From an uncultured Gammaproteobacteria bacterium (lineage in GTDB: Bacteria; Pseudomonadota; Gammaproteobacteria; HK1): 64,000 bases of DNA. The notes beneath the pieces are model-generated. The model was not told the DNA's origin. It saw only the letters and a program-made list of their open reading frames with translations, and searched no databases. Positions 16,517 through 20,033 of the stretch are shown in pieces. Position 1 is the first letter of the stretch; every line of letters starts with the position of its first letter. The stretch spans positions 1,798,001 to 1,862,000 of the forward strand of contig OY282353.1 of the NCBI GenBank assembly GCA_958295465.1. Reading direction: 5' to 3'. A program made the position numbers and the translations under genes.

Positions 16517-18142
16517 TCAGTGCCGAAAGTGCCGCATGCGGGTGAACACCATCGCCATGCCGTGCTCGTCGGCCGCCGCGATGACCTCATCGTCGCGCAT
16601 CGAGCCACCCGGCTCGATCACCGAGCCGACCCCGGCCTCGGCCGCCGCGTCGATGCCGTCGCGGAACGGGAAGAACGCATCCGAGGCGAGCACCGAGCCC
16701 CGCACCTCGATCCCCTCGTCCGCCGCCTTGACGGCCGCGACCCTCGCGGAGTGGACGCGGCTCATCTGCCCTGCCCCGACCCCGATGGTCATGCCGTCCC
16801 GGCAATAGACGATGGCGTTCGACTTCACGAACTTCACGACCTTCCAGGCGAAGAGGAGATCGCGCATCTCCGCCTCGGTGGGCGCACGCCGGGTCACGAC
16901 CTCCAGATCGTCCCTGGTGACGGCGCCGGTGTCGCGGTCCTGCACCAGCAGCCCGCCGGTGACACGCTTGAAGTCGAGCGCGGCGCGCGGCGCGGCAGGG
17001 AGCGCGCCGCATTCGAGGACGCGCACGTCGGGCTTGTCCGCCAGCGGCGCGAGGGCCGCCGGTTCCAGCCGGGGCGCGATCACCACCTCGACGAACTGCC
17101 GCTCGACGATCGCCGCGGCGGTCTCCGCGTCGAGCGGACGGTTGAACGCGATGATGCCGCCGAACGCGGACGTCGGATCGGTCCTGAACGCCCGCTCGTA
17201 CGCTTCCCGGATACCGGTTCCGATCGCGGCCCCGCAGGGGTTCGCATGCTTGACGATCACGCAGGCCGGCTCCTCGAAGCTCTTCACGCATTCGAGGGCG
17301 GCGTCGGTGTCGGCCACGTTGTTGAACGAGAGCGCCTTGCCCTGGAGCTGCCTCGCCGTCGCGACACTCGCCTCCGCGCCCGTCCCGGAGTGCGTCCCGA
17401 TACCCGTCTTCACGGCGGCTCCGACGCCTGCTCCCGCACCCGCCGGCTCGACGTAGAACGCCGCGCGCTGGTGCGGGTTCTCGCCGTAGCGCATCTCCTG
17501 CGCTTTCACGTATCGGAGGTCCAGGGTGGGAGGAAACGCGGCCGGCGGCGTATCCGTGCCGGCTCGTGTGCCGAGGTAGTTCGCGATCGCGCCGTCGTAG
17601 CGCGCGGTGTGCTCGAACGCCTTGGCCGCGAGGCGGAACCGCGTGGCCGGGGCGACCGCGCTGCCGGCACGCAGCTCCCCGAGCACCTCCGGGTAGTCGT
17701 CCGCATCGACGATCACCGTCACCCATGCCTGGTTCTTGGCTGCTGCGCGCAGCATCGCCGGCCCGCCGACGTCGATGTGCTCGATCGCGGTCGCGAAGTC
17801 GCAGTCCGGCTTCGCCACCGTCTGCTCGAACGGATAGAGGTTGACCACCAGCAGGTCGATCCCCGCGATGCCGTGCTCGCGCATCGCCTCGGAGTCGGTG
17901 TCGCGCCGGGCGAGGAGGCCGCCGTGGATCTTCGGGTGCAGCGTCTTGACGCGACCATCCATCATCTCCGGGCACCCGGTGTACGAGGAGACCTCCACCA
18001 CCGGCACCTCCGCGTCTCCGAGCCGCTTCGCGGTGCCGCCGGTCGAGAGCACCTCGATGCCGAGCTCATGCAGGGCACGGGCGAATTCGACGATCCCGGT
18101 CTTGTCAGAGACGCTGATGAGCGCGCGTGCCACCGGGGCCAC
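16517..18142 (-). CDS. purH: Bifunctional AICAR transformylase/IMP cyclohydrolase
   Basis: 541 residues, close to the usual 520–530. It catalyses the last two steps to IMP. The N-terminal cyclohydrolase domain has [24 protein letters not shown] and [18 protein letters not shown]; the transformylase domain has [29 protein letters not shown] and [13 protein letters not shown], and ends with [16 protein letters not shown]. Between them, at about residues 225–245, is a Gly/Ala/Thr-rich insertion that is probably a loop. Starts GTG 18142 or GTG 18133. It is followed by purD and preceded by fis, matching gammaproteobacterial order. Confidence 0.95.
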
Positions 18143-18216: not shown

Positions 18217-18720
18217 TCAGATCAGGTTGTAGCGCTCGAGTTTCTTGCGCAGCGTCGCGCGATTGATGCCGAGCTTCTGCGCGGCCCGGCTCTGGTTGCC
18301 CATGGTGTGCGCGAGCACCGCATCGAACAGCGGCGCCTCGATCTCGGTGACCGCCAGCTCGTACAGCCCCGAGACGTCATGGCCGTCGAGGCGGTGCAGG
18401 TAATTCTCGATCGCCTCCCTGGCGCAGTCGCGTAACAGCCTTCCGCCGCAGATCAACCTGTAGCACCCCGACTCGTCGCCTTGCGTCTTCTTGCGAAGCG
18501 TCCCGCGGTTGATGCCGAGCATGTTCGCGGCCCGGCTCCGGTTCTCCCCGGCGTGTGCGAGCACCGATTCGTACAGGGACGGCTCGATCTCGGCCATGAC
18601 CAGCTTGAACAGTCCCGATGCGTCATGGCCGTCGGGCCGGAGAAAGTAATGCTCCACCGCCTGCCTGACGCAGTCGCGCAGCAGTGCCGCGCCTCGCTTG
18701 TTGTCCCTGCCCTCACTCAA
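18217..18720 (-). CDS. fis: Tandem-duplicated Fis protein (two Fis domains in one chain)
   Basis: 167 residues, about 1.7 times normal Fis (about 98 in E. coli). Copy 1 spans about residues 13–78 (from LLRDCVRQAVEHYF to NRSRAANMLGINRGTLRKK) and copy 2 about 95–160 (from LLRDCAREAIENYL to NQSRAAQKLGINRATLRKK). By my hand count they are about 60% identical. Both keep the helix-turn-helix. Copy 2 ends canonically with LERYNLI; copy 1 runs into a short linker containing two cysteines (86 and 91). Fis is a homodimeric nucleoid and transcription factor, so this looks like a fused dimer. It directly follows dusB, as in E. coli. The start is TTG 18720; no in-frame ATG or GTG lies before the first domain. 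Confidence 0.85.
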   Translation of the reverse strand: MSEGRDNKRGAALLRDCVRQAVEHYFLRPDGHDASGLFKLVMAEIEPSLYESVLAHAGENRSRAANMLGINRGTLRKKTQGDESGCYRLICGGRLLRDCAREAIENYLHRLDGHDVSGLYELAVTEIEAPLFDAVLAHTMGNQSRAAQKLGINRATLRKKLERYNLI

Positions 18721-18765
18721 GGGACGTCGCCGCCGCGCGGCTTTCCCGCGATGGGCGCGACGCGC

Positions 18766-19758
18766 TCACGCGGCGAGCCTTGGCGGTGTTTCGTCGAGCA
18801 TGCGATGGAAGAAATCGCGCGTCAGTGCGAGCTGGCGCCGCGCGCATTCGACGCGGTTGACGCTACGCCAGAACCGCTCGCCTTGCGGGTACGCCCGGCA
18901 GTACCAGGACAGGTGCTTGCGCGCGACCCGGACCCCGCGGGCCTCGCCGTAGAAGGCATGAAGCGCGCGCAGGTGCGCAAGCAGCACACCGGCCCGCTCC
19001 TGCACGCCCGGCGGTTCGGCCTTCGTGCCCGATCGGAGGTACTCGGCGACTGCACCGGGCAGCCAGGGGTTGCCCTGGGCGGCGCGCCCGATCATCACCG
19101 CGTCGGCGCCGGTGTCGTCGAGCACCCGGCGGGCCTGCGCGGGGCTCGTGATGTCGCCGTTGGCGATGATCGGGATCGACACCGCGCGCTTGACGGCCCG
19201 GATCGATTCGTACTCCACGGCACCCTTGAACGCGCACCGTCGCGTCCGCCCGTGCACCGCGATGGCGGCGATGCCGGCCGACTCCGCGATGCGCGCGATC
19301 CGCACCGCGTTGCGCCGGTCCGGAGCGGGGCCGGTGCGGATCTTCAGGGTCACCGGCACCTCGACGGCCGCGACGATGCGCTCGAGAATTCGTGCGACCA
19401 GTGCCTCGTCCGACAGCAGGGCGGAGCCCGCCGCGGCGTTGCATACCTTCTTGGCCGGGCAGCCCATGTTGATATCGATGATATCGGCGCCGTGCGCCAC
19501 GTTGAATCGCGCCGCGTCGGCGAGGTACGCGGGGTCCGCCCCGGCGATCTGCACCGATCGGGGGGCGGGTTCCCCCTGGTGGTCGATGCGCCGCAACGTC
19601 TTCGGGGTTGCGCGCAGCCGTGGATCGCTCGTCACCATCTCCGATACCGTCAGACCGGCGCCGAGCCGCCGGCAGAGCTGGCGGAACGGCCGGTCGGTCA
19701 CCCCGGCCATCGGCGCAAGCGCGACTTGATTCGGCAAGCTGAACGGGCCTGTCTGCAT
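18766..19758 (-). CDS. dusB: tRNA-dihydrouridine synthase B
   Basis: 330 residues from ATG 19758. This FMN-dependent enzyme reduces uridines in tRNA. Signatures are VALAPMAGVTDRPFRQLCRR, INMGCPAKKV with the catalytic Cys, VTLKIRTG, HGRTRRCAF, PIIANGDI and VMIGRAAQGNPWL. The C-terminal tRNA-binding helical domain has RKHLSWYCRAYP. A longer TTG start (19794) adds only unconserved residues. It is co-directional with fis, 45 bases downstream, the conserved dusB–fis operon in which fis translation is linked to dusB in other species. Confidence 0.92.
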   Translation of the reverse strand: MQTGPFSLPNQVALAPMAGVTDRPFRQLCRRLGAGLTVSEMVTSDPRLRATPKTLRRIDHQGEPAPRSVQIAGADPAYLADAARFNVAHGADIIDINMGCPAKKVCNAAAGSALLSDEALVARILERIVAAVEVPVTLKIRTGPAPDRRNAVRIARIAESAGIAAIAVHGRTRRCAFKGAVEYESIRAVKRAVSIPIIANGDITSPAQARRVLDDTGADAVMIGRAAQGNPWLPGAVAEYLRSGTKAEPPGVQERAGVLLAHLRALHAFYGEARGVRVARKHLSWYCRAYPQGERFWRSVNRVECARRQLALTRDFFHRMLDETPPRLAA

Positions 19759-20033
19759 GGCGAACGCTCCCGCGCGGACGTGAACGGCGGGCAATTCATA
19801 GTGAGGGTGAAGACGAAACGACGACCGGGGCGAAGACGGGACCCCACGCCGACGGGGAACTCTTTACCACATCACGCCGGTTGAACAAAGGATGCATCCC
19901 GGCTTCGTCGACGCAGGGCAGAAACGTCCCCCCTTTGCGCGAAGTAGAGACGCCCCCTGGCCACCGGGCCATTTCCCCGGCCGAGGGATCGAATCGCGCC
20001 GGCGCCGGGTTCGGTGGGGCGCGTTTCCCATCT

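Follow-up and report, generated by a model that had tools for sequence, protein, structure and literature searches.

An in-frame tandem duplication of the Fis domain at the dusB–purH locus of an uncultured gammaproteobacterium

Among nucleoid proteins, Fis is a classic homodimer. In the window, by which we mean the whole 64,000-nucleotide stretch of DNA analyzed here, we found two Fis domains encoded head to tail in a single reading frame that opens with a TTG codon (Table 1). Our leading reading, a tentative one, is that this frame is translated into a single-chain Fis pseudo-dimer, perhaps together with some Fis made from the second copy alone. Such a product is plausible given that the frame is the only Fis in the genome, that the two copies are jointly constrained, that the core is intact and its DNA-contact residues are kept, and that AlphaFold predicts a Fis fold; speaking against it are an ancestral start codon now out of frame, an average ribosome-binding match at TTG 18720, the omega of copy 1, its substitution L42P together with the rare P61S, G72E, and Q74R, and a failed fold prediction when no alignment is supplied. 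The tandem frame is a variant within the known Fis family, not a new kind of system.

Table 1. Features of the fis locus, with positions numbered from the first letter of the window.
Feature	Position	Strand	Description
fis frame, two Fis domains	TTG 18720 to TGA 18219-18217	-	167 aa; open reading frame with Pfam HTH_8 and NCBIfam Fis matches
Fis core, copy 1 (aa 13-78)	18487..18684	-	matches NF001659 with 77 bits; shares 62% identity with copy 2
Fis core and tail, copy 2 (aa 95-167; core aa 95-160)	18220..18438	-	matches NF001659 with 97 bits
Linker, 16 residues, TQGDESGCYRLICGGR	18439..18486	-	two Cys; YRLI-TGC portion equivalent to YNLI-TGA, with which copy 2 ends
TGC (Cys91), lost stop of copy 1	18448..18450	-	TTGATCTGC; copy 2 ends in CTGATCTGA, and three congeners have CTCATCTGA
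Internal in-frame TTG	18454..18456	-	candidate start of copy 2 alone (79 aa)
GGGGTG, Shine-Dalgarno-like	18464..18469	-	located 7 nt upstream of the internal start; duplex of -8.6 kcal/mol
7-nt insertion TGAGGGC	18709..18715	-	placement uncertain; relative to three congeners; shifts the ancestral frame
Ancestral fis start remnant	18713..18769	-	18 codons from a GTG, which overlaps the dusB stop, to a TGA; 8-nt overlap with TTG 18720
dusB, upstream of fis	18766..19794	-	intact; 81-83% identical to two congeners
purH, downstream neighbor	16517..18142	-	intact

Profile searches matched the frame twice with both Pfam HTH_8 (E 1.3e-22) and the NCBIfam Fis model NF001659 (two stretches, 173 bits against a cut-off of 99 bits, E 1.2e-51), which at such E-values excludes chance. 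The two cores align over 66 residues without a gap and are 62.1% identical in amino acids and 78.8% identical in nucleotides, bearing out the first-pass annotation, which had put two Fis domains here, each with its helix-turn-helix (HTH), at about 60% identity. Over the 198 nt of the core there are zero indels, and 42 positions differ. Both copies retain the residues with which E. coli Fis contacts DNA: Asn73, Asn84, Arg85, Thr87, Arg89, and Lys90. We considered whether the tandem might be a sequencing or assembly artefact, as it occurs in one genome only and has an odd N-terminal frame. However, 42 differences in 198 nt are not what an assembly duplication would leave, a 7-nt insertion is atypical of a base-call error, and the adjoining dusB and purH genes are intact; an artefact is thus very improbable.

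What both copies have in common with E. coli Fis (NF001659, PDB 3iv5/1ety) is the match to helices A to D, the DNA-contact residues, and the dusB–fis gene order, whereas the tandem differs in carrying two domains per chain, in lacking an N-terminal beta-hairpin arm ahead of copy 1, and in missing Arg71 from both copies. In E. coli Fis, Arg71 governs how strongly DNA is curved (PMC4784862); in its place copy 1 has Gly, copy 2 has Met, and the congeners have Asn, suggesting that the Fis of this lineage may wrap DNA less. A typical Fis is a single domain of about 77-110 aa acting as a homodimer, from which a 167-aa frame with two domains departs unless copy 2 alone is translated. In that case the product, at 79 aa, would resemble NF002517, a family of short Fis proteins (77 aa); the tandem frame scores 138 bits with this model (cut-off 122), but the model covers one domain, 77 positions long, of which the frame holds two. 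NinH, a phage lambda mimic of Fis (PMC7166090), is likewise an HTH_8-type, Fis-like DNA binder, but it is a small homodimer with no tandem fusion, and the fis frame gives only a weak match to its Pfam family.

The frame lies between dusB and purH and on the same strand as dusB, its place next to dusB being characteristic of fis. The source genome is closed (one contig of 5,675,689 bases), and neither an HTH_8 profile search nor a search with the tandem protein itself found a second, single-domain Fis in it. Both parts of an earlier proposal are therefore upheld, namely that the tandem sits in the conserved dusB–fis place and that it replaces normal fis rather than accompanying it. The other HTH_8 matches in the genome are frames of 449, 499, and 530 aa, which are NtrC-type sizes, and one frame of 89 aa; we rejected the latter as a second Fis, as it reads as a HigA-type antitoxin. 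A search of the window against Rfam gave zero matches.

Three congeners (G003, G004, and G005) encode an ordinary single-domain Fis at the equivalent place. In each, fis starts at a GTG that overlaps the dusB stop (in G005, that of a dusB remnant) and ends in a YNLI- or HDLI-type tail followed by TGA. In G005 (locus L009), dusB has been lost from the genome, as judged by a search at E 1e-50 or better, while fis is kept and the last dusB codons remain before its GTG. The best codon tree places copy 1 and copy 2 as sisters, 1.7-4.2 lnL units better than rival trees, and dS between the copies (0.34) is lower than dS to the congeners (0.51-1.14). Together these results indicate that the duplication is most likely private to the source lineage.

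The junction between the copies points to how the frame was opened. Copy 2 ends in TAC AAC CTG ATC TGA, whereas copy 1 ends in TAC AGG TTG ATC TGC and reads straight into copy 2, so that the second cysteine of the linker is best explained as a stop codon that has mutated. Sequence comparison shows that a head-to-tail duplication of the fis core (helices A to D, about 240 bp) took place within the gene and that the TGA of copy 1 became TGC. The first-pass annotation had described a 16-residue linker with two cysteines joining the domains; length and cysteines are correct, but the second half represents the former C-terminal end of copy 1, its stop changed to Cys. The linker is accordingly best read as that C-terminus plus about five extra residues and not as a new joint.

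The arrangement appears to be rare. Searching for proteins with two Fis domains, a check that had been suggested from the sequence, returned only the source genome: we found two Fis in one frame in no other genome among all 17 of the order and 369 sampled from the class (323 of which have a Fis match). A DNA pattern specific to the tandem occurred in this genome alone among 398 of the phylum, the pattern being a narrow one (a CGC Arg codon and near-fixed spacing). Two loci (L066 and L074) that looked long at first proved to be single-domain, and genomes in which Fis matched two to four times carry the matches as separate genes; we rejected both groups as further tandems. In the open-access literature we found no report of a fused or tandem Fis.

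We then asked where translation of the frame could begin. The 7-nt insertion puts the ancestral GTG at 18769 out of frame, such that it encodes just 18 codons, and leaves TTG 18720 as the start. This TTG has an ordinary ribosome-binding match (-5.4 kcal/mol; background quartile -5.5), and the 8-nt overlap of the remnant's TGA with it would permit reinitiation. The start proposed for copy 2 alone, TTG 18456, lies within the linker, and its duplex is the best within the fis frame and ranks in roughly the top 5% of the 4580 start codons across the window. Judging from these start sites, both a 167-aa and a 79-aa product are possible. The earlier description of the gene as a tandem fused dimer holds insofar as the duplication is a tandem one and in frame, but the displaced ancestral start and the separate start available to copy 2 weaken the claim that a fused dimer is made. 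The asymmetric binding, fixed dimerization, and DNA looping suggested along with that description would be candidate properties of a fused product.

These start sites also bear on the main rival to a translated pseudo-dimer, which is that the working Fis consists of copy 2 alone, initiated at the internal TTG and acting as a 79-aa homodimer, with copy 1 a decaying leader that has neither a start frame nor a stop. We regard this as a real possibility, short of probable. It would account for the strong duplex at the internal TTG, for the presence in copy 1 of an additional stretch, bearing GGGGTG, that copy 2 lacks, and for the broken ancestral frame, and the existence of a 77-aa Fis family offers a precedent for so short a product. 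However, ranking at the 5% level gives the Shine-Dalgarno match modest evidential weight.

Substitution rates cut both ways. Taken jointly, the two copies have an omega of 0.28 and reject neutral evolution (LRT 9.4), but they evolve faster than the background, for which omega is 0.08 (LRT 7.8). Copy 2 alone (omega 0.13-0.22) is no different from background, whereas copy 1 alone (0.41-0.76) lies above it (P 0.006-0.03), as expected if only copy 2 is used. The omega of copy 1 is also indistinguishable from 1, in a neutrality test that simulation showed to be nearly powerless at 66 codons, and we therefore dropped the claim that copy 1 evolves neutrally. Against a copy 2-only Fis, the difference in omega between the two copies is not significant (P 0.25), and a simulated constrained copy 1 gave an equally high estimate in 23% of runs. 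The copy 1 core furthermore contains no stop and no indel, although simulated neutral decay left it without a stop in 63-75% of runs.

Individual residue changes are found in both copies. In copy 1, L42P occurs in none of 63 relatives, and P61S, G72E, and Q74R are rare; in copy 2, V31A, V54A, M55V, and M80K each occur in none of the 63. P61S and G72E had been considered as marks of a dead copy 1, an argument we dropped, as each is found in other Fis proteins and the title of PDB entry 1fip states that the helix kink is not due to Pro61.

A further alternative is that the genus is in the course of losing the fis locus as a whole, the tandem being a transient stage with little function. The locus is unstable: congener G002 has dusB and purH with no fis between them, and G005 retains fis without dusB, which leaves room for reading the tandem as a stage of decay. 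No single-domain Fis was found anywhere in the G002 genome, which is 96% complete. Where fis would sit between dusB and purH, G002 carries a few small, apparently membrane-spanning frames (locus L154, 2500-3200). That both copies evolve faster than background would fit a locus on its way out, but their joint rejection of neutral evolution and the intact recognition helices of both copies do not, and we consider this alternative improbable.

Structure prediction is consistent with the favored single-chain pseudo-dimer. With 61 relatives in the alignment, which in a test alignment fell on copy 2 only, AlphaFold returned a mean pLDDT of 85 and a pTM of 0.79, with helices A-B-C-D in both halves; without an alignment the prediction failed (pLDDT 45). 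The PDB structures closest to the model are E. coli Fis chains, and the copy 2 model superimposes on E. coli Fis with Z 8.8 and an rmsd of 0.9 over 80 residues. The pTM suggests a defined mutual arrangement of the predicted halves, as expected of an intramolecular pseudo-dimer. In the model, residues 83-95 (window 18439-18486) form short strands at 90-91 and 94-95, which bring the linker to the position taken by the N-terminal beta-hairpin arm in the alignment with E. coli Fis.

In the mechanism we propose for the single-chain pseudo-dimer, ribosomes arriving from dusB would pass the 18-codon remnant and reinitiate at TTG 18720, yielding the 167-aa protein. Its two domains would pair through their A and B helices into a pseudo-dimer with two slightly different HTHs, which would stand in for an ordinary Fis dimer, while the internal TTG probably contributes some Fis consisting of copy 2 only. 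The fusion would then mainly re-package Fis, any new activity being hypothetical. A stronger version, in which the diverging domains form an obligate heteromeric pseudo-dimer that binds DNA asymmetrically, its half-site preferences differing through G72E/Q74R of copy 1 and the replacement of R71, or in which two chains bridge DNA, seems to us rather unlikely.

If copy 2 alone is made, the locus would be a clear case of a decaying tandem duplicate misleading both gene caller and reader. If the whole frame is expressed, it would provide a ready-made single-chain Fis with which to ask whether half-sites need identical readers, and would offer a snapshot of an obligate homodimer becoming a one-chain heteromer.
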